The notes under the pieces are model-generated. The model saw only the letters and a program-made list of their open reading frames with translations. It did no database searches and was not told where the DNA came from. The translations under genes were made by a program, and so were the position numbers. Source: Promethearchaeia archaeon (GTDB taxonomy: Archaea; Asgardarchaeota; Lokiarchaeia; Sigyniarchaeales; SOKP01). From it: 64,000 nt of DNA. This document shows positions 13,547-30,372 of the stretch, in pieces. Each line of letters opens with the position of its first letter. Position 1 is the stretch's first letter. The DNA lies in contig JAHQWH010000002.1 in assembly GCA_029856105.1 (NCBI GenBank), positions 1-64,000 on the forward strand, written 5' to 3'.

Positions 13547-14392
13547 ATGATTGAATATATAATTATTGCGATTTTACAAGGCTTGTTTGAGTGGTTGCCC
13601 ATATCTTCTTCAGGACAGGTTATGATTGTTGCAGTTAATTTTTTTGGTATCCCTCCAGAAGAAGCATATAGTCTTTCAATTTGGTTACATCTTGGAACGA
13701 TGTTCGCAGTTCTATTAAAATTCAAGAAGGATTATATTAGAATTGTAAAGAGTTTTTTACCTATGAAATTTAATGTAATAGAAACTGATATAAAGAAGAG
13801 AAATTGGCTAATAGTGGGAACAATTGGAACGGCTATTACTGCCTTACCACTATACTTTATCTTTAAATTTATAATTGTTGGAGAATTTACGGCAATTCAC
13901 GGAGATTTGCTCACGCTTATTATTGCTGGTATGCTTATCATAACTGGAATAATTCTATTATTAATAAAAAAGAAATTTGGAGTAAAAACAATCGAAAGCG
14001 TTGAAAAACAAAATGTAATAAAAGATAGTTTTATTATTGGATTAATTCAGGGTGTTGCAGTATTACCTGGAATTTCTCGATCTGCCATCACAGTATCTAC
14101 AACCCTTATTGAAAATTATGAACAAGATAGTGCATTAAGATTAAGTTTTTTAATGTCCGTTCCCGTTGTAATCGCTTCAATCGCAGTTGATATTATCTTC
14201 GGAGAGGGCTCAGTGTTTAGAATTTTAGATCCGATTACTATTATCATAATTACATTATCTAGTTTTATTGTAGGATATGCGTCTATCGAAATCCTGTTAA
14301 AAATAGCTAAAAGGATTCAGTTCGGATATTTCTGCTTACTTTACGGAATAATAGCATATGCTATCATCCTACCCTTTTTCATTATCCATTAA
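13547..14392 (+). CDS. uppP: Undecaprenyl/polyprenyl-diphosphate phosphatase
   Basis: About 281 residues with seven or eight transmembrane helices. The two BacA/UppP active-site regions are seen: LQGLFEWLPISSSGQ near the N-terminus and IQGVAVLPGISRSAITVS near residue 170. The enzyme recycles a polyprenyl-diphosphate lipid carrier used in glycan export; in archaea the lipid would be a dolichol-type one. I chose the ATG at 13547 over the GTG at 13538 that overlaps the preceding stop. The 3' end overlaps the convergent kinase-like gene by 24 bp. Confidence 0.88.
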   Translation: MIEYIIIAILQGLFEWLPISSSGQVMIVAVNFFGIPPEEAYSLSIWLHLGTMFAVLLKFKKDYIRIVKSFLPMKFNVIETDIKKRNWLIVGTIGTAITALPLYFIFKFIIVGEFTAIHGDLLTLIIAGMLIITGIILLLIKKKFGVKTIESVEKQNVIKDSFIIGLIQGVAVLPGISRSAITVSTTLIENYEQDSALRLSFLMSVPVVIASIAVDIIFGEGSVFRILDPITIIIITLSSFIVGYASIEILLKIAKRIQFGYFCLLYGIIAYAIILPFFIIH

Positions 14393-15280
14393 ATCATTGA
14401 TATAATTAATGATAAAATCTGCCAGAATTCTCTCAATACCTTTAATTCCTCTAAATCCCGGAAAATCGTTAAGATCTATGAAATAATACTTATTGCTATT
14501 GATAGGCTGAACCAAGTCGAACCCAAATATTTTTAAATTCATTTCTTTTGAAAGTGTTTGGGCTAGATTATGAATTTCTTTAGTTATTTTAAATTCTTTT
14601 CTTTCGATTATGTCAACATCGATATTATCGGGCTTATTTTTCAAATATATATAAATCGGATTTTCTCTTATAATTCCAAACGTTTTGTCTCCTATTACGT
14701 AAATCTTTCTTTCAAAACCATCACACTCAATAAATTTTTGAATGTAGATGTCGTAGTATAATAAATGCTTATACCTTTCGCAAAATATATCTACTTCTTC
14801 TATTTTTCGAACTAAGAAATTGAATCTATTGTATTTATCATGCTGATAATGACTTTTAAGCACAATAGGTAATTTTGGAGTTGCCCATTTCTTAAATTTT
14901 TTAATATCTGCAATATTATTATTCCAAGAGCTTGGTAGAACGAAATTCTTCCTAATTTGAGGGTTATTTTTAAAAACTCTTCTTAAAGCATAATCAAGAG
15001 CGATCTTGTTTTTACAAGTTAAAACAGCATCAACACTATGGAAAGTTGGAATTTTATTAATCTTAGCATAATGAAGTAGATCGATTGAACAATCGTTCCT
15101 TACTTTAACAATAATTAAATCTGCTTCTTTAATCGCTTTAGGCATTCTAGAAAGGTTAAAAAAGTTTTTTGTGGGATCATGACAGTATAAATTGACATCT
15201 GAAACAGTTTTAAGCTTATTTATAACTCTTTTAATAATCTCATGATCTTCCCTAAAAGAAAAAACTACATTTTTAACCAT
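14369..15280 (-). CDS. ITPK-like ATP-grasp kinase (copy A)
   Basis: 303 residues with an ATP-grasp fold. The C-terminal motifs match inositol 1,3,4-trisphosphate 5/6-kinases better than RimK ligases: RKIYVIGDKTFGIIREN corresponds to the ITPK YKVFVVG strand, and IFGFDLV followed by FIDLNDFPGFRGI corresponds to LFGIDII and DINAFPGYEG. The N-terminal half also fits ITPK (EADLIIVKV, then a short segment before NKIAL). ITPKs phosphorylate inositol phosphates with ATP. Three more relatives lie within 11 kb, with myo-inositol-phosphate synthase among them. The substrate is inferred. The gene is convergent with uppP. Confidence 0.72.
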   Translation of the reverse strand: MVKNVVFSFREDHEIIKRVINKLKTVSDVNLYCHDPTKNFFNLSRMPKAIKEADLIIVKVRNDCSIDLLHYAKINKIPTFHSVDAVLTCKNKIALDYALRRVFKNNPQIRKNFVLPSSWNNNIADIKKFKKWATPKLPIVLKSHYQHDKYNRFNFLVRKIEEVDIFCERYKHLLYYDIYIQKFIECDGFERKIYVIGDKTFGIIRENPIYIYLKNKPDNIDVDIIERKEFKITKEIHNLAQTLSKEMNLKIFGFDLVQPINSNKYYFIDLNDFPGFRGIKGIERILADFIINYINDLMDNEKG

Positions 15281-15430
15281 AATTAAGGAAAAGAAAGTGA
15301 GATATATTCTTAAATTTTCCTTCTTAGGTATTTTTTGGAATTTAGAAAAATTTCATATTGCTATACTTCAGCCATTATACTTTTAAATGATGAATACAAA
15401 ATCTAATTAATATTTTTAGGAGATATTAAG

Positions 15431-16747
15431 ATGAAAGAAAAGGCTTTTTCAAAATTTTTACGAAATCAAGTATTGATAATTGGAGCGCTTTTTGCCGGTG
15501 ATCAAATATTTGGTTTCTTTGAACAGAATTATCTGAACACATATTTAGACCAAGTTTTGGGATTGACTCCATTATTCATTTCACTAATGGTAAGCTTATC
15601 TGCAGTAATGGGGCTAATTATGAATATTACATGGGGAATAATTAGCGATAATACACGAAGCAAATACGGCAGAAGACGTCCATTTTTACTATTTGGGATT
15701 ATAGCGGGAATTTCGATGATTATATTTGCATTTTCAATTGATATTGCTGGAGGAAACATCATGACGGCCTATATAATTTGCATTATTCTAGATGTAGTAA
15801 TAATTGGTATTTCTTCTAATGCTTATTATGTTTGTGAAAGATCATTAATTCCTGACACTGTCGATTTAGAAAAAAGGGGAAGAGCAAATGGGATAATAAA
15901 TAATATTGGTTACATTGGATTATTAATAGCAATCGCTGCATTTTTGGTATCAGATCTAATTTTTGGTCAAGAGACTCCTGAAGGAACAGTTATTGGCCAA
16001 ATGGGACACATTTTTGCACTCAGCATTGGAGGATTGAGTTTCTTAATTACAGGATTAATAGGTTTCTTCTTTATAAAAGAAAAACCTATCTCAGAATTAC
16101 CACCTAAGAAAAAATTTTTAGTAGAGTTAAAAGAAATAATAAATATTGAGCAATTTAAAGCTAATAAAGATTTTTTCAAAATTGTGTTAGCATTAACAAT
16201 ATTTAGAACTGGTATCTCCACAGTAATGCCCTTTTTATTTATTTGGATATTCGCTTTAGGATTATCTACTGTTGAATTGCTTGTTGCTGTTTTAGTGGGA
16301 TTTGTAATTTTATTTCTAATAACATCGTTGCTAGGGTATTTAGCAGATAAACATGGTAGAAGGAAATTTATACCCATTTCAATTGTAATAGTATCAATTG
16401 GTATTATTTTTGCTCCATTAGTGAAGATAGGGAACACAACAAATTATCCTTTGGTAGTATTTATTCTACCATTCATGCTTGTAGCAGTTTTAGGTTTGGC
16501 TACGCCGATGAATGCTTGGAGTCAGGATTTAATACCTGAAGACAAGAGGGGTAAATATTTTGGGTTTTTAAATATAATATTTACTATTTCTCAAATAATA
16601 GGATCTATTATTGGCGGATTGGTAGCAACTTATTTTTTAATTGGTGGATTAGTACCTGAATCCTTTGTTTTTGTGTTCGCACCAATTTTCTTTCTTGGAT
16701 CAATTCCCCTATTTCTAAGAGTAAAAGAAACTTTAGTAAGAGAATAA
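15431..16747 (+). CDS. GPH/SLC45-type MFS sugar transporter
   Basis: 438 residues, about 12 transmembrane helices. The loop after helix 2 carries DNTRSKYGRRRPFLL, the signature of the glycoside-pentoside-hexuronide and sucrose-type branch of MFS. A second MFS loop (DKHGRRKFIP) follows helix 8. It should import a sugar or glycoside with a cation. It is divergent from kinase A and convergent with the dehydrogenase next door. GGAGA at 15419-15423 supports the ATG. Confidence 0.82.
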   Translation: MKEKAFSKFLRNQVLIIGALFAGDQIFGFFEQNYLNTYLDQVLGLTPLFISLMVSLSAVMGLIMNITWGIISDNTRSKYGRRRPFLLFGIIAGISMIIFAFSIDIAGGNIMTAYIICIILDVVIIGISSNAYYVCERSLIPDTVDLEKRGRANGIINNIGYIGLLIAIAAFLVSDLIFGQETPEGTVIGQMGHIFALSIGGLSFLITGLIGFFFIKEKPISELPPKKKFLVELKEIINIEQFKANKDFFKIVLALTIFRTGISTVMPFLFIWIFALGLSTVELLVAVLVGFVILFLITSLLGYLADKHGRRKFIPISIVIVSIGIIFAPLVKIGNTTNYPLVVFILPFMLVAVLGLATPMNAWSQDLIPEDKRGKYFGFLNIIFTISQIIGSIIGGLVATYFLIGGLVPESFVFVFAPIFFLGSIPLFLRVKETLVRE

Positions 16748-16763
16748 ATAACTTAAGTTTTAC

Positions 16764-16773
16764 TTTTTTTTTT
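16764..16773 (+). terminator. Oligo-T terminator
   Basis: A run of ten T begins 17 bp after the stop codon of the GPH-type transporter, a typical archaeal termination signal. Confidence 0.55.
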
Positions 16774-16804
16774 AATTTTTTGACTTTGAAATTTATAAGA
16801 GATA

Positions 16805-17818
16805 CTATCTTCTTTGAGGTTCAACAATAATTTTTATCCACTTTTCACGATCGTAATACTCGAACGCATCTACAGCTTCTTCTAGTGTTATTCTTTTAGT
16901 AACTAATTTATCTAAATCTAAGGATTTAGTCGCAATTAAATCTAAAGCTTCCTTCCAATAATCCTTATCTGATTTTGAATTTACCATCGCTTCGGGATAG
17001 ACTAATTCTACGCCTTTTTTTCTACAGCTTACATATGGAATATATTGCATTTTTTGAGCTCCAAATACAATAACTCGAAAACCAGGTTTCACTAAGTCTA
17101 TAGCATCAAGAAGAATGTCGTTATATCCAACCATTTCAAATACAGCGTCGGCTTCACCAAAATCCTTTTTAATCCCATCAACGACGGTTTCCTTTCCATG
17201 AGTAGATCTCGAATATTCGCTTGGACTAAAAACTTTTGCCCCCCAATGCTTCGCTAACTCTCTTCTATGGTGATAAGGTTCTGAAGTTGCAACTTCAATT
17301 CCATTTTTTAATAATATTTGAGTAAGAATTAACCCAATAGGGCCCAAACCTAATACAATCGCTTTTTTCTCACCTTCGATTCTTTCGAATTCTGCCCTCT
17401 CGTAACAATTGATCGCACAACCAACAGCATCTGCAAAAGAAATTTCATCCATTGAAAGATCATTTCTAACGATTGGAAGTGCTCCATAAACCTCATCCTT
17501 GCCATGTCCAATGACATTTACATGAGTAGAATACTCTGCATATCCTTGCCCCATACGGGCTAAATGATCACCAATAAAAATTCCTTCAATATCTTTTCCA
17601 ACCTCAACAGCGATGGCGCCAGTTTCATGCCCGTGTCCACCAGGCTCATGAGCTGTAATCCAATGACCTCCTTCAAATATCCCAACATCGCTGCCACAGA
17701 TTCCAACAGTAATTATTTGTGCTAAAATTTCCTTATGTCCAGGTTTAGGTATTTCAATGTCTATTAATTTAACAACCCATGGTTCCGGAAATAATAAAGC
17801 ACGCATCTTATTCTCCAT
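16805..17818 (-). CDS. Zinc-type medium-chain dehydrogenase (sugar/polyol type)
   Basis: 337 residues. The catalytic zinc ligands are visible: GICGSD (Cys) and HEPGGHGHE (His-Glu). The Rossmann motif is GLGPIGLI near residue 155. The four-cysteine structural-zinc loop usual in this superfamily is missing. Relatives oxidise sugars, polyols such as sorbitol or inositol, or threonine with NAD(P). It lies 45 bp downstream of the glycosidase gene on the same strand and is probably cotranscribed, which favours a sugar substrate. Confidence 0.8.
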   Translation of the reverse strand: MENKMRALLFPEPWVVKLIDIEIPKPGHKEILAQIITVGICGSDVGIFEGGHWITAHEPGGHGHETGAIAVEVGKDIEGIFIGDHLARMGQGYAEYSTHVNVIGHGKDEVYGALPIVRNDLSMDEISFADAVGCAINCYERAEFERIEGEKKAIVLGLGPIGLILTQILLKNGIEVATSEPYHHRRELAKHWGAKVFSPSEYSRSTHGKETVVDGIKKDFGEADAVFEMVGYNDILLDAIDLVKPGFRVIVFGAQKMQYIPYVSCRKKGVELVYPEAMVNSKSDKDYWKEALDLIATKSLDLDKLVTKRITLEEAVDAFEYYDREKWIKIIVEPQRR

Positions 17819-17863
17819 TTTAATTTCACGATTATTTTTTAATATTAGTTTAGATCTTTATAT

Positions 17864-20689
17864 CTATCTTCCTTTAATTCCATCAAATAAAAGCCTTAAT
17901 ATGATTCCAAGAGGAACTCCCAATCCTTTAGAAGAACTCGCTTTAGAAATGGATGGATCATAATTTTTATTCACTTTTTTTACCCAATCAATGTATGACA
18001 TATTCATTACTTCTTTTAATTCAAAATCTTGTTTTATCCTTTCTGCGTGATTAGCATATTTTTTAAGGTTATTATTAACTTTAAGGTCTCCATTTTTTTG
18101 CATTAATATCAATGGTTTAAACGAAAAATGATCAGCAAATGATTGTATTACCTTAGGAGGAGAATCACCAATATAAGGTGATAATAATAAATTAAATGAG
18201 ATTGTTTTACCACTAAAAGTGGGGGCTGTAGATTCATTTGTTCCTATTAAATTTGCAGTAATTCTTTGAGCATGACCATTCCCTTCTGTCCAATAATGAA
18301 AAACCTCACCATAATATGTACCAAAAGGATTTATTCTGATCTGTTGTCCTTTCATTTTAATGTCACCAAATCCTTTATCCATAAGTTTTAATGGAGAGAA
18401 TGCGAAGTTTGCTGCTTCTAAAGAATCGAAACCAATAAGAAGGCCTTTTTCTTGATTAGATAAAGCCATCCATCCATCTGATATATTAGCAACTAAACAA
18501 TCAATATCTGCATTTTTAGGATCTACTTCTTTCATATCAAGGTTAAAGTAATCTATATTACCCAGAAAATTCTTTTTCCAAATTCTTAGTGTTTTATTTG
18601 TTCCTAGAATATTGGATCTTATTTCACATGGCATAACCTCTTTCCATTTCTTATTGTACTTTTCTTCAACGAAATAAGATGTTCCATCACTTTTTCCTAT
18701 GTTCGTAGTTTCGCCTTTAATTTCAGGAACATGCATTAGTACATCTACAAATAAGTATGGCAGCTCTGAATATAATTTAATGGTCTTTTCAGAATAGACT
18801 CGATAATTTTTTTCAATTTCAAATTCGCTTTTAATTTTAATGGAAGCAGAAAAACCGTCACTTCCATCTCTTTGAATAATGATCTCATCTGTATCTGAAT
18901 TATATATTTTCCCTTTGTTTGATTTATCAAAATTAACTGATGACTCTAAAAATTTTGGGCAACCAAACTCAACATTATTGAATTTAAAGGAATTTATTTT
19001 ACCATTATTGTTAAACTCCAGAGTAATATATTTATTTTTCATGATAGTTTTGGTTGCTATCAATTTTTGATTGTTGATTTGAGGTTTGGATTCTGAAAAA
19101 TTTATTGAAAAAATAGCAGTTTTCATATCATTTTGAGAGAAAGCTGAATTTGGTATAATTGCTTCTAATTTTAGACCAGATTCGTTATTATAAACGGAAA
19201 AGGATTTTAAGAATTCTTTTGAGTCTAGATTTAACAATTTTATAATTTTTCCTTGTTTTATTAACTGATCGTTAAAATTTGATGGTAGCTCTAATTGAAT
19301 CAATATTGAGCTATTCAGGGGAATTTTCTCTTTTTCTGAAGTTCCTCTATTTGTTATTGGGGTAATTGAAATAATAGATTTAAATTCACTGTAATCATTA
19401 GTAATTGTTTTTACCATTTCTCGCGTTGCCAAATTTACAGCTTTTTCTGATGCAATAAAAGACTTTAGTACATAACTCATAGCGGTTTTACGTCTATCTG
19501 AATGAAGAAATGGCATTGCCATACCAAAATTAGTTGTTGAGGCAAAAAGAATTTTATTTTTTAGGTATGAGTCAGCAGAATCGTTAGTGTTCCTTAAAAA
19601 ATTATTAATTTCAGATTTAGAATTCTTAACTAAGCCTTCAGAGATTAAGGTATCTGATATACATTTTAACCACCTAGCACTTTGCCCTATAGTCCAGAAT
19701 TTTGTATTATTAAATTTTTGAGCCCAATTATAATATCCATTAAACATCCCATCAGCAACATCTTCTCTTAATAAAGTTTCACCTTGTACTTTCAATTTTG
19801 GTATAATTTCTAAAAGGTTAGTAAATTCAGCATAATCGTATTGGTCTACTGCTTCAGCAAACTCCATTAAACCTCTTGAGTTTGGCATCCAGTTTAGAAA
19901 TTTAGGTAATTTTAAACCAATCCAATTTTCATAATCCATATCAAAATTTAGGAATATAAGAGCATGCCCACTTATTACTCCGCTCTTTTGTTTTTGTCTA
20001 ATGATTTCAAACCATCTCTTTATCGAACAATAGTCAAGAATGTCACCAAATCCATACATTGGTATCATTAAGCAAGAAGCATCTGTAATAGTTGAGTTAA
20101 ATTTAACTACACCATATCTCTGATTCCAGTCTAATCGGGGATTAATGAAAGGTCGTGCTACATCAAATCCATACATAGAGTAATAAATACATATCCCCTC
20201 TACACCCAATTTATTATACAATTCTATCATACCTTGTGTAAACATCGTCTCTTGTGTGCGGGCATATGGAGCTACCCTTCCTGGAAATAATTGATTTAGA
20301 CCGATACCCATTGAATTTTCTAAGAACCATTTATGCTGTTGGATAAATTCTTCCGTATCTAAAATTGGTTGAGCGACGTTACCCCAAGAACCAATTAGAA
20401 CTTCATCTTTTCCCTTTTTACACCTTTCAATAACTCTATCAAGTACATCTTGTTGAAATTCTTTTTGTAATTGTATAGACCAAAATGTATCACCATAATC
20501 CCAAGTAATTCGCGTATTTCCAAATTTAAAACCTACATCTTCAATTCTATCTAATTCATCAAGAATGCCTCTCATCATTTTGAGATCTTTACCAAAACCG
20601 GCGTCCCCTCTTGAATCTCCTCTATAGGAATGATAATAATTAATATGAGGTGATAAAACTAAATAGATTTTTTTTTGTTCGATATTCAA
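17864..20689 (-). CDS. Large glycosidase, GH38/GH57-like (tentative alpha-mannosidase)
   Basis: 941 residues, without signal peptide. The N-terminal ~350 residues look like the seven-stranded barrel of GH38/GH57 enzymes (opening LVLSPHINYYHSYRGD, then FWSIQLQKEFQQDVLDRVIERC and IGSWGNVAQPILDTEEF). The middle is helical and the last ~450 residues form beta-rich domains, like the C-terminal part of alpha-mannosidases. The standard GH38 HxD/DxFGH motifs are not obvious, so the exact family and catalytic residues are uncertain. Context (dehydrogenase in the same unit, sugar transporter nearby) supports carbohydrate degradation in the cytosol. Confidence 0.6.
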   Translation of the reverse strand: MNIEQKKIYLVLSPHINYYHSYRGDSRGDAGFGKDLKMMRGILDELDRIEDVGFKFGNTRITWDYGDTFWSIQLQKEFQQDVLDRVIERCKKGKDEVLIGSWGNVAQPILDTEEFIQQHKWFLENSMGIGLNQLFPGRVAPYARTQETMFTQGMIELYNKLGVEGICIYYSMYGFDVARPFINPRLDWNQRYGVVKFNSTITDASCLMIPMYGFGDILDYCSIKRWFEIIRQKQKSGVISGHALIFLNFDMDYENWIGLKLPKFLNWMPNSRGLMEFAEAVDQYDYAEFTNLLEIIPKLKVQGETLLREDVADGMFNGYYNWAQKFNNTKFWTIGQSARWLKCISDTLISEGLVKNSKSEINNFLRNTNDSADSYLKNKILFASTTNFGMAMPFLHSDRRKTAMSYVLKSFIASEKAVNLATREMVKTITNDYSEFKSIISITPITNRGTSEKEKIPLNSSILIQLELPSNFNDQLIKQGKIIKLLNLDSKEFLKSFSVYNNESGLKLEAIIPNSAFSQNDMKTAIFSINFSESKPQINNQKLIATKTIMKNKYITLEFNNNGKINSFKFNNVEFGCPKFLESSVNFDKSNKGKIYNSDTDEIIIQRDGSDGFSASIKIKSEFEIEKNYRVYSEKTIKLYSELPYLFVDVLMHVPEIKGETTNIGKSDGTSYFVEEKYNKKWKEVMPCEIRSNILGTNKTLRIWKKNFLGNIDYFNLDMKEVDPKNADIDCLVANISDGWMALSNQEKGLLIGFDSLEAANFAFSPLKLMDKGFGDIKMKGQQIRINPFGTYYGEVFHYWTEGNGHAQRITANLIGTNESTAPTFSGKTISFNLLLSPYIGDSPPKVIQSFADHFSFKPLILMQKNGDLKVNNNLKKYANHAERIKQDFELKEVMNMSYIDWVKKVNKNYDPSISKASSSKGLGVPLGIILRLLFDGIKGR

Positions 20690-20864
20690 AATTATTTAAC
20701 TCTTTGTTATGGTTTAAGACTGAATAAATCTATATTAAAGAATTTAATAATATTATCAAAATTTTCAAATCATTCACTATTTTACCCTTTAACACATCAA
20801 TCATAGAAGATGGTCATATCCTTAATAATTTGGCTTGGAAATAATTCTCAAAAATTTTAAAATG

Positions 20865-20874
20865 TTTTAAATAG
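20865..20874 (+). promoter_or_regulatory. TATA box for myo-inositol-phosphate synthase
   Basis: TTTTAAATAG is centred about 29 bp before the ATG at 20899, so transcription would begin at or just before the start codon (leaderless mRNA). Confidence 0.5.
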
Positions 20875-20898
20875 TATTATTTAATTATAGAAAATATC

Positions 20899-21990
20899 AT
20901 GACAAACAAAATTAATGTATGCATAATTGGCTGTGGTGATGTTTGTTCTGCTTTAGTACAAGGAGTACAAAATTACAAGAAAAATCCAGATAATATCATA
21001 GGGTTATTACCTGAGATTACTCAATATAGCGTTAATGACATAAACTTTGTACTAGGGATCGATGTTAATTCAAATAAGGTAGGAAAGGACCTAAGTGAAG
21101 CTATTTTTATTGAACCAAATTGCAACATCAGATTATTTGAACCCGGATTTTTAGATGCTCCTGTAATAAAAGGACCTGTTATGGATGGATTAAATAGTAA
21201 CATAAAAAAGTTCATTCCCATAGATGATAATCAACTTGATCCAGATGTTTCAAAAGCGATAAAAAATAAAGATATTGATGTTGCAGTAATTTTACTTCCT
21301 ACTGGAAGTCACAACGCAGTGAGGTTTTATGCCATGGCCGCTCTTGACGCAGGTGCATGTGTTGTTAATGGAATGCCGTCATATGTAGCTAAGGACCCTG
21401 AGATCGTAAAAAAAGCCGAAGAACTAAATCTTTCATTAATTGGTGACGATATAAAATCTCAGATAGGCGCTACTATTATTCATCGCTCATTAGCAAATCT
21501 CTTTCCTATGAGAGGAGCAATTCTCGATCGCACGATTCAATTAGATTGGGGAGGGTCATCAGATTTTTGTAATTTATTAACTCCAAGAGCTAATGGGAAG
21601 TTAGTTTATGAAGAAGGGAAACGACAAGCTAAAACTGAAGCAGTTGTAGCAAATCTTCCAAATAAAGACACTATAGAATGTCAAATCTCAGCTGTAGACT
21701 ATATTCCTTTCTTAAAGAATCAAAAGGAAGCTTATATGAGATTAGAAGGTCGTATTTTTGGAGGTGCTCCAGTTAGGGTTGACATTACGATGTTTGTAGA
21801 AGATGGAAATAATTCAGCGGGTGTAATAGCAGATTGTATCAGAGTTTCAAAAATCGCTAAAGATCGCAAAATTGGAGGTGTTCTACACTCAGCTTGCTCT
21901 TTCTTTAATAAACATCCCCCAGAACAATTAGATGATTACATAGCAAAAAGTCACCTTTTAGAGTTTATAGAAAACAAAAGGGAAAGGTAA
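20899..21990 (+). CDS. ino1: myo-Inositol-1-phosphate synthase
   Basis: 363 residues, like the short bacterial and archaeal enzymes. The NAD-binding start is IIGCGDVCSALVQG. The family's best-conserved region is intact: LLPTGSHNAVRFYAMAAL, then GDDIKSQIGATIIHRSLANL with the catalytic lysine, LDWGGSSDFCNLL, and YMRLEGRIFGGAPVRVD. The enzyme turns glucose 6-phosphate into inositol 1-phosphate (1L-myo-inositol 1-phosphate, also called Ins3P), the first step to inositol lipids, soluble inositol phosphates and compatible solutes. It sits among four ITPK-like genes and an SP-type transporter, which suggests a soluble inositol-phosphate pathway. No inositol monophosphatase or CDP-alcohol transferase lies in the window. 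Confidence 0.93.
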   Translation: MTNKINVCIIGCGDVCSALVQGVQNYKKNPDNIIGLLPEITQYSVNDINFVLGIDVNSNKVGKDLSEAIFIEPNCNIRLFEPGFLDAPVIKGPVMDGLNSNIKKFIPIDDNQLDPDVSKAIKNKDIDVAVILLPTGSHNAVRFYAMAALDAGACVVNGMPSYVAKDPEIVKKAEELNLSLIGDDIKSQIGATIIHRSLANLFPMRGAILDRTIQLDWGGSSDFCNLLTPRANGKLVYEEGKRQAKTEAVVANLPNKDTIECQISAVDYIPFLKNQKEAYMRLEGRIFGGAPVRVDITMFVEDGNNSAGVIADCIRVSKIAKDRKIGGVLHSACSFFNKHPPEQLDDYIAKSHLLEFIENKRER

Positions 21991-22020
21991 ACTCAAGGAA
22001 CTTTTTCTTCACTTACATAT

Positions 22021-22932
22021 TTAACTTTTCGCTTTGATAAATGAATTTTGATAAGTTTCTCTCATATTTATCAAGTTATAAATGTGATCTGAAACCAGAC
22101 TCACTCCTTCGGGTATACTCCTAAAACTTGGGAAGTCGTTTATGTCTACAATGTAAGGGCCTTTTTCAGTCATAATGTAATCTAATCCAAAAATAGACAT
22201 TCCAAACTTTCGTCCTAATCTTATAATCCTTCTTTTAAATTGCTCGTCGACAGGAACTCTAATATGGATTAATTCTAACGGAGATAAATTTTTGTTTTTT
22301 TGTAAGCGATTATGCGAAGTAATTGAAACAACCCAATTACCAATAACATATACCTTATAGATAATTTCGTGCTCACCTAAATATTCTTGTAAAAATAACT
22401 CACTTTCGTCATAGGTTTGTGTCAATTCAACTAAATCATTCGAGTTCTTAACAATTCCAATAATTCTATCGTTTTTAGGTAACTCCGGTATGTTATGTGA
22501 GTTCAACTTAACGATAATATTAGTACCTTTCTGGCACGCTTTCCAAGCGTCTTGTTTGGTATTATAAGTGAGTGGTATTTGGATTTTCTTACAACTACTC
22601 TTGATTAATTCAAAAGTGTTTGTTCTACTCTCACAAATTTGGACAGAATTTAACGAATTTAGAATTGGAATATTTGGAGAAACATTTCTAACAACTTTGT
22701 AGATACTTTCGTTAGATTTTTGGGTAGTAAGCTTAACAATCACAAAGGAAATAGGGTATTTTTTCAATCTTTTTTCCAAATATTTTTCATTAAAATTTTC
22801 ATGTCCATTTTTCATTAAATTGACTACGTAAATATTGTAATTCTTTAATAGGAATTTCTTGATATGTTCTAAAACCTCAAGATCCCTATTACAAATGGCT
22901 CCTACATATTTCCTTTTTATATTACTCGCCAT
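22021..22932 (-). CDS. ITPK-like ATP-grasp kinase (copy B)
   Basis: 303 residues, the same length as copy A. This is the clearest ITPK-like copy: FLQEYLGEHEIIYKVYVIG matches the ITPK stretch ending YKVFVVG, MSIFGLDYI matches SLFGIDII, and VDINDFPSFRSI matches the metal-binding DINAFPGYEG. The nucleotide-binding lysine region reads IIVKLNSH. The N-terminal half resembles ITPK (FVIVKLTTQ, ILNSLNSVQICESRTNTFELI). It is convergent with ino1, with 30 bp between the genes. Activity on an inositol phosphate is inference from motifs and context. Confidence 0.75.
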   Translation of the reverse strand: MASNIKRKYVGAICNRDLEVLEHIKKFLLKNYNIYVVNLMKNGHENFNEKYLEKRLKKYPISFVIVKLTTQKSNESIYKVVRNVSPNIPILNSLNSVQICESRTNTFELIKSSCKKIQIPLTYNTKQDAWKACQKGTNIIVKLNSHNIPELPKNDRIIGIVKNSNDLVELTQTYDESELFLQEYLGEHEIIYKVYVIGNWVVSITSHNRLQKNKNLSPLELIHIRVPVDEQFKRRIIRLGRKFGMSIFGLDYIMTEKGPYIVDINDFPSFRSIPEGVSLVSDHIYNLINMRETYQNSFIKAKS

Positions 22933-23143
22933 TTAAAAAACTCTATTAATTTGATTTTTTAAAAGCAAACCATAGTATATAAATGTATTGTTTGAGCGTA
23001 TTTTCAGTCATTAAGTAATTTAATTGAAATTATATTTTTTTTTTAACTTAGAAAAGCTTAAAAGAATATAGCTCAAAATTAATTTATACAATATTCTTAA
23101 AAAATTTTATAATATTTGATAATAATAGAGATGAAATAATAAA

Positions 23144-24403
23144 ATGTCAAAATTGGATGCCTTAGCTAAAGATAAGGATGAAAAAGCAGAGAAATTATCT
23201 CAAAGATCAAAAGGATACATGCTCTATCTTGTAGTATTTATGGGATTAGTAGGTTTAATGGATAATTTTCTATCTCAAATTGAATCGGTCGCAGTACCTT
23301 ATTTACTTGCAGATTTTGGTATAACCCCAGAAACCTTTGCTTTTTGGCAAGGAATCTACGGAATTATCTCATTTGCTGTATTTTTTATTGCTTGGATTTC
23401 AGACGCTTTCGGTAGAAAAAAGGGAATTCTTTTGTTAGTTCTTGTATTGGGTGTTCCTGCACTTTTTATTGGAATAACGGCCTTTACATTTCACTTATTT
23501 ATGATATTATACGCAATTATCATAACAGCGACACTTTCGAATATGTGGGAACTGCCTATTGTCGAGGAATCACAACCAAAGAAACGTGGGCTTTATGGAG
23601 GGCTTACTTTTCTTATCGGTTTAATTCCGGTATTTGCATTTGTGGGAGTGCCTATTGCTGAGGCTTTTGGATGGCGATGGACTTACGGTGTAATGTTTTT
23701 TTTAATGCTTTTAGTTATAATACTATGGTTCTTTATGAAAGAACCTCAGAGATGGCTTGAGGCTCATGAAGAGAGGGGACATGAATATCTAAAAATAAAG
23801 ACCGCATTTAAATCGTTAAAAAGAAAAGATTTAAAATATATCTTAATTGCTTCGTTAGTTTATGGTGTGTGGACTGTCTCATTTAAGATGGGGACAACAT
23901 GGGGAGGTCATTACTATATGGATGTCATTGGATTAACTCCTGGAGGATATAGATCAATATTGACGATTGGCGGATTACTTACAATGGTCGGTGCATTATT
24001 AGGGGGGATATTAATGGATAAATTAGGAAGAAACATAACACTATTAGTTGGATGTGGGGGATCTATTATTGGTTTTGTATTTTTAGGAATTTCCACATTA
24101 CCAATCTTCTTTTGGATGGTATATTTATTTATGCCTATGATTTTAGCGTATATTATGGTATATTTCAGTGAAATCTTCCCTACTCATATTAGGAGCACTT
24201 GTACAGGTATTACTGCTACAGCAGCACGTCTTTCGTATGTTCTAGGTCCTTTACTTGCTTCTACCTTATTAATCGCATTCCCAGATATGGGTGGATTTTG
24301 GATTGTAGCTGGATTCCTCATGATCATACCAATATTTTCCCTATTCGTAAAACCATATGAAACTAAAGGTAAAACTCTGGAAGAAATTCAAGAAGAAAGA
24401 TAA
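23144..24403 (+). CDS. SP-family MFS transporter (sugar/inositol type)
   Basis: 419 residues, about 12 transmembrane helices. The sugar-porter hallmarks are present: DAFGRKKG after helix 2, DKLGRN after helix 8, EIFPTHIRSTCTGI, and a C-terminal PYETKGKTLEEI close to the PETKG motif. This family includes hexose and myo-inositol importers. It is divergent from kinase B and lies 154 bp before kinase C on the same strand, so an inositol-type substrate is a reasonable guess. Confidence 0.82.
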   Translation: MSKLDALAKDKDEKAEKLSQRSKGYMLYLVVFMGLVGLMDNFLSQIESVAVPYLLADFGITPETFAFWQGIYGIISFAVFFIAWISDAFGRKKGILLLVLVLGVPALFIGITAFTFHLFMILYAIIITATLSNMWELPIVEESQPKKRGLYGGLTFLIGLIPVFAFVGVPIAEAFGWRWTYGVMFFLMLLVIILWFFMKEPQRWLEAHEERGHEYLKIKTAFKSLKRKDLKYILIASLVYGVWTVSFKMGTTWGGHYYMDVIGLTPGGYRSILTIGGLLTMVGALLGGILMDKLGRNITLLVGCGGSIIGFVFLGISTLPIFFWMVYLFMPMILAYIMVYFSEIFPTHIRSTCTGITATAARLSYVLGPLLASTLLIAFPDMGGFWIVAGFLMIIPIFSLFVKPYETKGKTLEEIQEER

Positions 24404-24411
24404 ATTATTAA

Positions 24412-24425
24412 TTTTTTTTTTTTTT
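24412..24425 (+). terminator. Oligo-T terminator
   Basis: Fourteen consecutive T start 8 bp after the transporter stop codon. This separates the transporter from the following kinase pair. Confidence 0.6.
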
Positions 24426-24557
24426 CATTAATGAAGATTTAGATTATAATAATAAATTCAAGAAAAATTCAAAATAGTATAAAAGTATGAATATTATTAG
24501 TTCATTAGCAAAGAATCTTTTTAGAATTTAAAGTAATTGAATTAAAAGGTTAAATTT

Positions 24558-25376
24558 TTGATAAAAATTGGTATTATTATCGATAAGTACCATTTGCAGA
24601 AAAAAGCCTTAAAACTTATTGATTATCTATCCACAGTAGCAAAAATTTCTCTATATCTTGAAGAAGATTATCTAATAGATTATTCCAAATTTGATTTTAA
24701 TGAGGATATCTTTTTTGTCAAAGCTAAAGGTGATTTAATCTTAAATCTAATAAAGTTGATTGAAAGAGAAACAGATATTCCTGTAATTAATTCATCAAGA
24801 GGAATATGGTTAGCAATTAATAGATTTTTAAATAGTACTTTGCTAAGACAATCAGGGATACGAGTCCCTAATTTTACTCTAAACGCTAAAGGATTAATTC
24901 CACCTTTTAATGATTATATTATAAAAAATATCATAGATCAAAAGAACTATGCTTTTAGCCCCAAAATTCAAAGAATGAATGGATACTTAACTATTTCCGA
25001 TCAAAGGGCATTAGACGAAGTAAACGGAGAGAAAGCAAAATATACCTATCTCTACTACCAAGAATTTATTAAAAGTAAATGGGAATATAAAGTATATTGC
25101 ATTGGTGATGACCTGTTTTATTACAAACAAATCCCTATTTTAATTGATCCAGATAAGATGAAATCTAGAAGAAAGATCAAGGAAATACCAGAACTGAGAG
25201 AGATGGCCTTCAAGGCAATAAAAGCTGTGGGTTTAAAAATTGCATCGATGGATTTTCTTCAATCTGAAAGTGGAGATTTCTATCTTACTGATATCAATTC
25301 GTCGCCCAATTTTAATTACATAAAAAATGGGCCAAAAATTATTGGCGATTATTTAATTAAACAAGCTAAAAATTAA
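24558..25376 (+). CDS. ITPK-like ATP-grasp kinase (copy C)
   Basis: 272 residues from a TTG start (MIKIGIIIDKYHLQ). It keeps the YYQEFIKSKWEYKVYCIG strand and the C-terminal IASMDFLQ and TDINSSPNFNYI metal-binding segment, so it belongs with copies A and B but is more diverged (PGF replaced by PNF). The N-terminal domain is shorter. Copy D follows within a few bases, so the two are cotranscribed and may act together. Confidence 0.65.
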   Translation: MIKIGIIIDKYHLQKKALKLIDYLSTVAKISLYLEEDYLIDYSKFDFNEDIFFVKAKGDLILNLIKLIERETDIPVINSSRGIWLAINRFLNSTLLRQSGIRVPNFTLNAKGLIPPFNDYIIKNIIDQKNYAFSPKIQRMNGYLTISDQRALDEVNGEKAKYTYLYYQEFIKSKWEYKVYCIGDDLFYYKQIPILIDPDKMKSRRKIKEIPELREMAFKAIKAVGLKIASMDFLQSESGDFYLTDINSSPNFNYIKNGPKIIGDYLIKQAKN

Positions 25377-25390
25377 GTTTGACAAATGAA

Positions 25391-26182
25391 ATGAAAATTG
25401 GAATACTATCAAAAAGAACAGGAAACTTCACTGGTAAAATCAAGCTTTACTTAGAAAAGAAAGGACATTCAGTGAATATTTATACTGCTAGCAATCTATG
25501 CGTTAATGATGCTCTCTTAATAAACGATTTTTACATATTAAAATCTAAACATCTATTTTATCTCTATGCAGGTTATTTTTTAGAAGCTAATAATGTTCCC
25601 GTTATCCCAAGTACAGATATTAGTTATCGACATAAAAATCGAATTGAATCTTACTTTTCTATTAAAAATACTAATCTCTTACTTCCAAATGTTTTTATGG
25701 GAACTATTGATACTTTAAAAAGTCAATTAAAAAAAATTGATTTACCGCTTATTTCAAAACCAATTTTAGGCTCTGGAAGTAAGGGGGTTAAAGTTATTAA
25801 TTCTTTTCAAGATTTTAATACTATTACCGAAGAGAGTTTTTATTTAGAAAAATTTATTGAAGGCATTCACTACTTAGCATACTTTATAGATGAAGAGATC
25901 TGTATCTGTGAAAAAAAACCTTTAGCAAACGAACACGACAAAGTAAAAATAATTGTTTCCGATGGTGAGATAGAAGAATATATAATTAAATGGAAGAATA
26001 ACTATAATCTCTTATTTGGCCACCTAGATCTTGTAAGAGATAACAACACTGATAAATTATTCGTGGTAGATGCGGGAACCTTTCCTGAATTTTCAAATTG
26101 GAAGCATAATAGTGATCCCGTTTCGAAAGTATGTAACTTAATTTTGGATAGATATCAACAAATATTAAACAAAACGGAGTAA
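25391..26182 (+). CDS. ITPK-like ATP-grasp protein (copy D, most diverged)
   Basis: About 263 residues. I chose the ATG at 25391 (MKIGILSKR, like copy C) over a TTG at 25379. The ATP-grasp core is visible as LISKPILGSGSKGVKVI and FYLEKFIEGIHYLAYFI. The final metal motif reads DAGTFPEFSNW: the usual Asn of D-x-N is replaced by Gly, so catalysis may be altered. It lies 14 bp after copy C and 38 bp before the HAD gene. A regulatory or non-catalytic role is possible. Confidence 0.6.
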   Translation: MKIGILSKRTGNFTGKIKLYLEKKGHSVNIYTASNLCVNDALLINDFYILKSKHLFYLYAGYFLEANNVPVIPSTDISYRHKNRIESYFSIKNTNLLLPNVFMGTIDTLKSQLKKIDLPLISKPILGSGSKGVKVINSFQDFNTITEESFYLEKFIEGIHYLAYFIDEEICICEKKPLANEHDKVKIIVSDGEIEEYIIKWKNNYNLLFGHLDLVRDNNTDKLFVVDAGTFPEFSNWKHNSDPVSKVCNLILDRYQQILNKTE

Positions 26183-26220: not shown

Positions 26221-27234
26221 ATGAATTCGCCCAATAACTTTCCTAGTTCAGACGAAAATGAATACGCGACATCTTCAATATTCAAAAAACAAAAGGTTAA
26301 ACTATATGAGATTAAGCACTTTCTTTTTGATTTTGGAGGAGTATTAATAGAAAAGTCATTTGTATTAGATAATTTATTTGATTTTATTGAGCATGATCTA
26401 AATATTAAAATTCCATCAAAAGAAATTGATCCATATCTCAAAAAATTAAGACGAAGGTTATCGTCTGGAAGGATTTCTGCTAGAACATTTTTAGAATCGA
26501 TATTTGAGACTTATTATGTACCTTTCCAAAAAAAAAATGAAGCGTTACCGCCAAAAAAAGTTAATATCGAGTATTACTTGGAGCTTTGGTTTAACCTTTA
26601 TTCTCAAGTTACTCACATATCGTCTGATATGGCAGAGATTATCGATCTTTTACATTTAGCGGGGTATACTGTAAGTCTTTTGTCAAATACTTATGACATT
26701 CATGCGAAATCAAATGAATTAAGGGGTTTTTACGATAATTTTGATAACGTGTTTTTATCGAACGAAATTGGATTAATTAAACCCGATATGGATAAATACA
26801 TATATGTATTAAAAAAATTAGGTTCCAAACCAAAAAGATGTATTTTTGTTGATGATAAAATAAGTAATCTTATTCCTGCACATGAATTAGGAATAATCGT
26901 TATAAAATTCGAATCTTTCGAGAAGTTTAAACAGCAATTAAACGATATAGGCATAATAGAAATAAGCCCAAATTTAAGGAAAGAAATCAAGAAAAAGTAT
27001 GAATCATATAAAAAAAAGAAAAAGGAATATAACAAAATAAAAAGGGAATACAAGAAGGCTAAAAAAAAGTATCTAAATAAAAGATATAGAAAGAAAAAAT
27101 CATTAAAGAGAAGGCTTGATTTTCAAAAAAAGCGAGCAGAATACCAAAAGAAAAAGATTGAATATCAAAATGAAAGGGATAAGAAAAAGGAAGAACTAAT
27201 ATCAAAAGTTAAATTAAATTTTTATAGTAATTAA
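26221..27234 (+). CDS. HAD-family phosphatase with a long basic C-terminal tail
   Basis: 337 residues. Residues ~30-240 are a HAD hydrolase of the YihX-like group: LFDFGGVLI (motif I), SLLSNTYD (motif II), and IKPDMDKYIY with IFVDDKISNL (motifs III and IV). Residues ~245-330 are an extreme Lys/Arg/Tyr-rich helix with repeated KKKxEYxK-type units, likely a charged coiled coil able to bind nucleic acid, polyphosphate or acidic membranes. It lies 38 bp after kinase D, so a phosphatase acting on the kinase products is plausible. The track of basic residues is unusual for this family. Confidence 0.78.
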   Translation: MNSPNNFPSSDENEYATSSIFKKQKVKLYEIKHFLFDFGGVLIEKSFVLDNLFDFIEHDLNIKIPSKEIDPYLKKLRRRLSSGRISARTFLESIFETYYVPFQKKNEALPPKKVNIEYYLELWFNLYSQVTHISSDMAEIIDLLHLAGYTVSLLSNTYDIHAKSNELRGFYDNFDNVFLSNEIGLIKPDMDKYIYVLKKLGSKPKRCIFVDDKISNLIPAHELGIIVIKFESFEKFKQQLNDIGIIEISPNLRKEIKKKYESYKKKKKEYNKIKREYKKAKKKYLNKRYRKKKSLKRRLDFQKKRAEYQKKKIEYQNERDKKKEELISKVKLNFYSN

Positions 27235-27237
27235 CCA

Positions 27238-28368
27238 TTATTTATTTTCTTCTGTTTCGGTATCGCTTTCTTTATTGTAAGCTTCTAGCTTTTCCATAAC
27301 GGATTCTGCGGGTGATGCCGCAGGAATTGGTATTTTTTCGTAAATTTCAATAAATTTTACATCATTTATATCTTCGCTCATATGAGTCTGAAGGTCCATG
27401 GCAAACCCAAATTTAAAGTAAGTGAGATTTTGGAACAGAAACATTTTAGGAACTGTAATTTCTAGAGTCTTATCCTCCGCATGGTTTATGATAAATTCAG
27501 CAGCACTCTCTTTAGGAATCCCCTTTGTAATCATGAAATATTCAATTTTTTCGTTAAAATCTTCTATTTTATCGATAATCTCTAGGTTGTAGTCGATTGG
27601 TTGACCCGCTAAAGGATGGTTATAGTCGATAATGACTTTTCCTTGCATAATATTAGAAACTACGCCTCTTTGGCCTTTTTTATTGGTAAAATCTTGACCA
27701 AATTCGGGGTTCTTGCCTTCATTTAATTTTCTAAACTTAGCGATACCAATTCTTTCGATTTTTTGAGGGTCTCTTTTACCAAATGCTTTAGTTGGGGGTA
27801 TTCTTACAGATTTCTTTTCAAAGTAATTCATTTCTTTAATTGTTTCAGTTAATCCCTCGTTTAAGAATCCTGGCTTTCCAACAATAATGAATTCTGGAGT
27901 GTAATGACCTTGTTTAGCCTTTTCTTCATCGTAAATTCCCGATTTTCTTGCGTCCTCCTCGGTAGAAACTCTAAAAACTTTTCCTTTTTGGGTTCTTGCT
28001 GTCATTTTTAAGAGTACAAAATCACCCTCTTCAACTTTTTTTCCTTGTAATTTGTTTTTCTTTTCTTCTAATTTCTTAGCTTCTTCTTGAATTCTTTTTT
28101 CTTCCTTTGCATCTGTTTCCACTTCTGCGGATACTTTATCGTTTTCTACTGTACTACCCTCTGATGTAGCCTTATTTGAGCCACCTAACAAATCTTTTGC
28201 ATTGCTTACGAATTTTTCAGCAGTAGCCTTTCCAATACCTTTAAGTTGTGTTAACTCATCCACATTCGCATCTGCTAATTTCTCAACTGTGTCAATCCCA
28301 GCTTCTATTAGAACTTCTTGCTTTTTGCCAACACCTTTCACATCTTCTAAATTCATTCCTAAAACCAT
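27238..28368 (-). CDS. SlyD-like FKBP prolyl isomerase fused to a helix-hairpin-helix domain
   Basis: 376 residues. Residues 1-62 form a pair of helix-hairpin-helix units (VKGVGKKQEVLIEAGI and LKGIGKATAEKFV), a DNA-binding type domain. A charged coiled linker follows (~63-110). Residues ~110-275 are an archaeal long-type FKBP/SlyD domain with an IF insert (RIPPTKAFGKRDPQKIERI and DYNHPLAGQPIDYNLEI). The last ~100 residues form a further domain as in archaeal FKBP26. The isomerase half should fold proteins; the HhH half suggests tethering to DNA. Its 3' end faces the HAD gene 3 bp away. Confidence 0.85.
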   Translation of the reverse strand: MVLGMNLEDVKGVGKKQEVLIEAGIDTVEKLADANVDELTQLKGIGKATAEKFVSNAKDLLGGSNKATSEGSTVENDKVSAEVETDAKEEKRIQEEAKKLEEKKNKLQGKKVEEGDFVLLKMTARTQKGKVFRVSTEEDARKSGIYDEEKAKQGHYTPEFIIVGKPGFLNEGLTETIKEMNYFEKKSVRIPPTKAFGKRDPQKIERIGIAKFRKLNEGKNPEFGQDFTNKKGQRGVVSNIMQGKVIIDYNHPLAGQPIDYNLEIIDKIEDFNEKIEYFMITKGIPKESAAEFIINHAEDKTLEITVPKMFLFQNLTYFKFGFAMDLQTHMSEDINDVKFIEIYEKIPIPAASPAESVMEKLEAYNKESDTETEENK

Positions 28369-29643: not shown

Positions 29644-30372
29644 TTAGGTTTCAAATGCTAACCATTTGATGATGTTTGAAAGAAATTTAATATTATCACC
29701 AGCATCTAATCCAAAATCATCTTCAATAAGCCAATCTGATGAACCTATAGTTACACATCTCCCGCTAAAAAACTCAGATACACTACAAATAGGCACTATG
29801 CCAACTGCTTCTATGTCGTCGTCAACTGTATATTTAAATTCTGCTTTTTCGGAAGTAACGATTATGTCCTCAACATCCTCTTCCGTTAGTGTAAAAAAAG
29901 TACAGTTTGGTAGGACTACTTCAGTAATTCCTTCAGTTATCGGATGGTTAAATAAGAGGTTTATTAGTACGTTTTGTTTGTTGACTAAAAAATGTGAATG
30001 TGATTCTTGAATTACGCCGTTCCAAAATCGTCGTACTCCCGTCATTTTATACAACACCCGAATAGAACCTTGCTTCATAGGAATGTCTTTATCGCCCCCG
30101 CTTCCGCTAGTTAAGAAAAGGCCTCCTCCATCCCCAACATAACGCTTAATTGCTAATAGTTCGTCCTTAGTAAATTTATCTGCCTTTCCGTCTTTAGTAT
30201 GCTGAATATTTCCCATAAATAGAATATCATAATCTTCAAGTGTATCAAAATCTATAGGTCCTTCATTTTTGTCAATATAATCCACTTCTAATTCGTCTTC
30301 GCTCAATGAAAAATCGGGAAATTCCTCTATCTTTTCTTTGTGAGATAAATCAACTATTATACTAAATGGCAT
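29644..30372 (-). CDS. GIFT-domain (IFT52-like, GATase-like) protein
   Basis: 242 residues. The fold order suits the glutamine-amidotransferase-like GIFT domain known from IFT52 and ABC-associated proteins: YDILFMGNI, then FTKDELLAIKRYVGDGGGLFLT, then GRCVTIGSSDWLIEDD and a final helix FLSNIIKWL. The same sequence of segments is seen in the N-terminal half of eukaryotic IFT52. No catalytic cysteine is apparent at the nucleophile elbow, so it is probably a binding protein. It is located between the radical SAM gene and psmB on the same strand. Confidence 0.6.
   Translation of the reverse strand: MPFSIIVDLSHKEKIEEFPDFSLSEDELEVDYIDKNEGPIDFDTLEDYDILFMGNIQHTKDGKADKFTKDELLAIKRYVGDGGGLFLTSGSGGDKDIPMKQGSIRVLYKMTGVRRFWNGVIQESHSHFLVNKQNVLINLLFNHPITEGITEVVLPNCTFFTLTEEDVEDIIVTSEKAEFKYTVDDDIEAVGIVPICSVSEFFSGRCVTIGSSDWLIEDDFGLDAGDNIKFLSNIIKWLAFET

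Follow-up and report, generated by a model that had tools for sequence, protein, structure and literature searches.

A conserved Lokiarchaeal gene block joining an inositol-phosphate synthase to two putative ITPK-group kinases and two diverged ATP-grasp paralogues

Inositol-phosphate signalling is usually regarded as a eukaryotic trait, and Lokiarchaea are archaea related to eukaryotic cells. The synthase Ino1 makes inositol 3-phosphate (Ins(3)P) from glucose-6-phosphate. Inositol-trisphosphate 5/6-kinases (ITPK) can use this compound, as described for HsITPK1 and AtITPK1, which phosphorylate Ins(3)P (PMC7356102), and in human ITPK1 the inositol phosphate is contacted by K59, H167, K199 and R212 (PMC12077091). 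According to published accounts of Desfougeres et al. 2019 (PNAS), four ITPK homologues are present in Lokiarchaeota (PMC7356102; repeated in PMC8024741 and PMC7695695); they are described as having an ATP-grasp domain and inositol-phosphate-site residues, with a soluble route starting from Ins(3)P (PMC7356102, PMC8024741, PMC12077091), and the 2019 proposal of pre-eukaryotic inositol-phosphate signalling rests on these homologues. The idea of Lokiarchaeal ITPK kinases is thus substantially known, as far as these accounts go, and the novelty in archaea that the original prediction had suggested does not hold. Here, we describe a stretch of 64,000 nucleotides from a Promethearchaeia archaeon (contig JAHQWH010000002.1, positions 1 to 64,000; hereafter the window) in which four ATP-grasp genes, named A to D, are grouped with an Ino1 gene. 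Sequence comparison indicates that A and B are ITPK-group proteins and that C and D lie outside this group.

Genes A to D and Ino1 form a core block that about 40 species from a single Lokiarchaeal family retain, with the order A(-), Ino1(+), B(-), C(+), D(+) emerging from neighbourhood comparison. The four open reading frames and the motifs previously read from them are real. Indeed, orthologues of each gene are found in 25 to 40 related genomes with order and orientation retained, and the genes are under purifying selection (omega 0.05-0.42), so that they are not chance reading frames. The neighbouring inositol synthase was also correctly recognized, as Ino1 matches Pfam Inos-1-P_synth (PF01658) at 3e-20 (72.7 bits, cut-off 27) and TIGR03450 at 6e-89. 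The link to inositol that it provides is stronger than had been proposed, as both gene order and co-occurrence are conserved. In particular, among 65 genomes of the family, counted from match tables that include incomplete matches at the ends of contigs, cluster Ino1 and B occur together in 43 of 44 genomes (Fisher P 4e-16), while cluster Ino1 is found together with C in 42 (P 3e-12) and with D in 40 (P 2e-9), all three values ignoring the relatedness of the genomes; several of the exceptions are contig ends. Between cluster-bearing genomes, cluster Ino1 shares at least 76% identity, as against about 38-46% with the ordinary Asgard type. The presence of an ordinary Ino1 besides the cluster one in several genomes suggests that the latter is a dedicated copy; within the window's genus it is the sole Ino1 found in many genomes.

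The assignment of A and B to the ITPK group is based on profiles, diagnostic residues and a tree. A contains the motifs RKIYVIG, IFGFD and DLNDFPGFRG, and B contains YKVYVIG, IFGLD and DINDFPSFRS. The Pfam family Ins134_P3_kin (PF05770, curated cut-off 23 bits) is matched by A with 47.4 bits (2e-12) and by B with 34 bits (3e-8), against 25 (24.6) and 15 bits, respectively, for RimK, and it is matched by every one of the 37 A and 28 B orthologues tested (E up to 0.01). A true RimK homologue of the same order, used as a control, gives 155 bits for RimK and 19 for ITPK. In profile searches of the PDB, ITPK precedes RimK by about eight orders of magnitude for A (1.7e-11 versus 1.9e-3) and by about five for B (4.5e-7 versus 0.047). 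The four groups were also aligned with human and potato ITPK and with 11 RimK-type Asgard proteins. The counterparts of human K59, K199 and R212 are K59, K192 and R205 in A, invariant in 37 orthologues; the H167 position is occupied by an invariant R152 with a His nearby, and homologues from a second family carry His. In B, K67 and K193 correspond to K59 and K199 and are invariant, the R212 position is lost, and H146 and R156, near H162/H167, are invariant. At the K199 position, Lys is carried by A, B and C, as it is by their counterparts (A-like, B-like and C-like) from two further families, whereas Arg is found in 11 of 11 RimK-type proteins. Similarly, ITPK and A to D have Asp as the first metal residue of their end motif, and all 11 RimK-type proteins have Glu; the latter share with D a Gly-rich loop that A, B and C do not have. 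In a tree that included partial human and plant ITPK sequences, these eukaryotic proteins form one clade (95/94) together with A and B and with their A-like and B-like counterparts from two further families; C and D lie outside it, and the RimK-type proteins are separate (99/98). The eukaryotic ITPKs are a clade of their own, and the branching order within the ITPK clade is not settled.

The four genes are all homologous by hhalign (A-B 3e-20, A-C 1e-15, A-D 9e-8, C-D 1e-8, B-C 5e-5), A being the most central in profile-profile comparison. The original prediction had seen in them four ITPK-like kinases, to be checked by ITPK against RimK profiles; this comparison, set beforehand, bore out A and B, which score higher for ITPK in Pfam and the PDB and group with it in the tree, but not C and D, whose best matches are of the RimK/ArgX type. 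C, with the motifs YKVYCIG and DINSSPNF, matches Pfam RimK at 1e-4 (22.3 bits, cut-off 21) and ITPK weakly in 3 of 26 orthologues only; in the PDB, ArgX is its best match (5e-4) and ITPK follows at 0.095. It retains the ITPK-type Lys (K178) and the DxN pair (D245, N247), without a Gly-rich loop. D, with the motif DAGTFPEF, matches ATP-grasp_3 in 25 of 25 orthologues and ITPK in 5 of 25, and its best PDB match is again ArgX (2.2e-6; ITPK 0.084). The K199-type Lys and the metal-binding Asn, replaced by G233, are gone in D, and a GSGS loop is present. D is not a decaying pseudogene, because its omega is 0.18-0.42 and its motifs are retained across genera. Membership among RimK, LysX and ArgX does not follow, as none of A to D combines a score above the curated cut-off with Arg at K199, E-x-N and the Gly-rich loop: against TIGR00768 (cut-off 143.4) B is unmatched, A and C reach at most 49 bits and D reaches 30 bits, the Gly-rich loop being the one RimK-type feature of D.

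We propose, with a probability of roughly 55%, that the A-Ino1-B-C-D block encodes a pathway for soluble inositol phosphates in Lokiarchaea, in which A and B would act as ring kinases and C and D would carry out further steps. Homology, gene order, co-occurrence and residue conservation are observed, and the substrates, products and step order that we infer are as follows. Ino1 would convert glucose-6-phosphate to Ins(3)P, and A and B would use ATP to phosphorylate further hydroxyls of the inositol ring. The phosphates of the substrate would be held in A by the equivalents of human K59, K199 and R212 and in B by those of K59 and K199 together with the invariant Arg/His set, while Mg-ATP would be bound by DxN and an upstream Asp. 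C and D may then modify the product as extra kinases or ligases, or D may have a regulatory role. No IPK-family kinases were found in 63 related genomes, so that the ATP-grasp enzymes would have to perform the phosphorylation steps. The conserved block with its own inositol-phosphate synthase thus offers a likely substrate for the Lokiarchaeal kinases and points to the exact genes. A bolder form can be put forward tentatively, and we consider it rather improbable: the block would be a complete soluble inositol-polyphosphate pathway made of ATP-grasp paralogues and a dedicated Ino1 only, whose C and D steps (possibly ligation or pyrophosphorylation) have no eukaryotic counterpart, and it would have arisen within Lokiarchaeia and not in the last Asgard-eukaryote common ancestor.

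Several points weigh against the proposed pathway and against the place given to A and B in it. The activity of both proteins is predicted from sequence and context only, they have very little sequence identity with eukaryotic ITPKs, and their profile matches lie largely within the last two motif blocks. H167 is not strictly retained in either protein, an Arg lying nearby. A also passes the Pfam RimK domain cut-off (24.6 versus 21 bits) and matches the NCBIfam RimK model (TIGR00768, rimK_fam) over its full length with 48 bits, below the cut-off of 143.4. The approximately unbiased test does not reject a tree joining ITPK to the RimK-type proteins (p 0.24); for this reason, and because of the unsettled order within the clade, the grouping of A and B with eukaryotic ITPKs is supported, not proved. 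The evidence from fold models is neutral between ITPK and ArgX, since the model of A, built from a shallow alignment (predicted template modelling score 0.71), is matched about equally by ITPK, ArgX and PPIP5K in Foldseek, and that of B, also from a shallow alignment, is unusable. The co-occurrence P values take no account of kinship, and A is more loosely attached, 12 genomes having it but lacking cluster Ino1, B, C and D. Neither the IPK family nor an SPX sensor was matched in the 63 genomes, where the SPX control was silent as well.

Some of these points are shared by the alternative that survives best, which we nevertheless consider unlikely, namely that A to D are all RimK/ArgX/LysX-like carboxylate-amine ligases, adding, for example, amino acids onto a peptide, a cofactor or an inositol-containing compound, and that the likeness to ITPK reflects common ATP-grasp ancestry. 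The full-length rimK_fam match of A, ArgX as first PDB match of C and D, the equal Foldseek ranking of ArgX and RimK with ITPK for A, and the grouping of ITPK with RimK that the tree test leaves possible would all fit such ligases. However, A and B have Lys, Asp and no loop where the 11 Asgard RimK-type proteins uniformly have Arg, Glu and a Gly-rich loop, their Pfam and PDB profile scores favour ITPK, and the linkage with Ino1 is tight.

More doubtful is the view that A and B are ITPK-group small-molecule kinases acting on a lipid headgroup or another inositol derivative, such as a polar lipid or precursors of archaetidylinositol, and that Ino1 mainly feeds the synthesis of membrane lipids. 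Where the cluster Ino1 is the sole one, as in many members of the window's genus, it must also supply any inositol lipids, the genome holds four genes of the CDP-alcohol phosphatidyltransferase family, and UppP (BacA) adjoins A. Yet several genomes have the ordinary Ino1 beside the cluster one, known ITPKs act on soluble inositol phosphates, as is generally held, and UppP and its neighbours stay by A even in genomes that have none of Ino1, B, C and D. For the latter reason, the low-molecular-weight phosphatase, UppP and pncA were also rejected as parts of the system.

The distribution of these genes is narrow. Of 228 genomes from Asgard archaea, 54, all from one Lokiarchaeal family, match Ins134_P3_kin, and two from another family match it weakly; it was not found in the others at the profile sensitivity used. 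This restriction to one Lokiarchaeal order, at that sensitivity, weakens a simple inheritance of ITPK from the common Asgard ancestor. A occurs without the other four genes of the block in genomes G024, G025, G028, G033, G036, G041, G043, G045, G047 and G049 (L067-L073, L102, L103), and in several of these the solitary A adjoins the FKBP gene. The FKBP-PsmB locus also harbours an A-like gene in a second family of the order (L099, L100); a third family (G066) has B-like and C-like genes, with 33-37% identity, lying end to end (L096:9703-11347). Neither Ino1 nor D was seen in the 20-kb stretch around this pair, which may represent an earlier and smaller version of the block. Given these homologues in a second and third family, A is judged to be old within this order and not a recent import, and the same probably applies to B and C; relatives of A were sought in viral contigs and none was found. 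A recent acquisition of the genes from a eukaryote, without a settled role, is very improbable, as the one-family distribution with two weak matches in a second that might suggest it is countered by the old history in the order seen in the syntenic A-like gene and the B-like/C-like neighbours, by the separate clade of the eukaryotic ITPKs and by purifying selection.

Table 1. Features of the block and its surroundings in the window
Feature	Position	Strand	Assignment	Evidence
Gene A	14369..15280	-	predicted ITPK-group ATP-grasp kinase	Pfam, PDB profile, alignments, tree
Variable insert, A to Ino1	15431..20689	.	MFS transporter, Zn-dependent dehydrogenase and 941-aa protein	neighbourhood comparison
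Candidate Ino1 promoter (archaeal, BRE/TATA-type)	20859..20873	+	AAAATGTTTTAAATA; relatives AAAATGATTTAAATA	
Ino1	20899..21990	+	inositol-3-phosphate synthase of cluster-specific type	Pfam, TIGR03450, identity, co-occurrence
Gene B	22021..22932	-	predicted second ITPK-group ATP-grasp kinase	Pfam, PDB profile, alignments, tree
Second MFS transporter, B to C	23144..24403	+		Pfam, neighbourhood and gap comparison
Gene C	24558..25376	+	divergent ATP-grasp paralogue, outside ITPK clade	Pfam, PDB profile, alignments
Gene D	25379..26182	+	divergent ATP-grasp paralogue with GSGS loop	ATP-grasp_3, PDB profile, omega
HAD-type hydrolase	26221..27234	+	optional partner 3' of C-D	Pfam Hydrolase 3e-15

The spacing of the block varies along its length (Table 1). 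C and D look co-transcribed; in the window the listed start of D is 2 nucleotides past the stop codon of C, and across genomes the spacing ranges from an overlap of 4 nucleotides to a gap of 23. Ino1 and B are convergent, mostly 11-70 nucleotides apart. The gap between B and C is about 120-440 nucleotides in most relatives, where the second MFS transporter is mostly absent. The insert between A and Ino1 is found in some genomes only and is absent in many relatives. The HAD hydrolase lies 3' of D in many genomes and is missing in several that bear the cluster. The element AAAATGATTTAAATA precedes 27 of 34 Ino1 orthologues at a distance of 28-97 nucleotides (mostly 39-40), and it is very strongly conserved while most of the Ino1 intergenic region varies; the corresponding element in the window is likely an Ino1 promoter of the archaeal BRE/TATA type under unusual constraint. 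No copy of the motif was found 5' of A, B or C, and shared regulation through it was rejected because it is confined to Ino1.

Other genes of the neighbourhood can be noted in their own right. The 941-amino-acid protein of the insert (17864-20689, minus strand, TTG start) also occurs beside the Zn-dependent dehydrogenase in some relatives, with roughly 56-93% identity. It has no Pfam match at E up to 1 and no PDB sequence match, and the label 'GH38like' once given to it was a by-eye guess that neither search supports. Adjoining the cluster family-wide is a gene at 27238-28368 (minus strand) in which an N-terminal helix-hairpin-helix domain is fused to an FKBP26-like peptidyl-prolyl isomerase. 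A protein encoded at 29644-30372 (minus strand) matches the GIFT domain of IFT52 (PF23355, 5e-7), which is otherwise characteristic of intraflagellar transport in eukaryotes; its second match is ThuA-like.

Compared with known systems, the block synthase is a clear member of the Ino1/ISYNA1/MIPS family (PF01658), of a distinct cluster-linked type. With ITPK1 (PF05770; human, plant and Entamoeba), A and B share the blocks K(V/I)(F/Y)V(I/V)G, FGxD and DxNxFP, besides the diagnostic Lys and Asp and the Pfam and PDB matches; they differ by a very low full-length identity (12-16% in Foldseek alignments of A) and by an inositol-binding set kept in part only, and C and D do not qualify. The ArgX/LysX/RimK enzymes (TIGR00768, PF08443) have the fold and ATP-grasp core in common with the four proteins and are the best solved-structure match of C and D, but A, B and C have none of their Arg at K199, Glu at the metal site, Gly-rich loop and usual W(K/R)(T/S)N, and the loop is present in D only. 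The kinase domain of PPIP5K/Vip1/Asp1, likewise an ATP-grasp inositol-phosphate kinase, has a weak profile match to A (0.0016) and a Foldseek match; by sequence it is weaker than ITPK, and A and B have no phosphatase domain. The Lokiarchaeum ITPKs of Desfougeres et al. 2019 come from the same archaeal group and carry the same idea of a soluble route; four homologues, which need not be A-D, were reported there, whereas here A and B alone appear to belong to the ITPK group. As far as the accounts of the 2019 work show, the conserved Ino1-linked cluster, the split between A/B and C/D and the narrow distribution in Asgard archaea are new.

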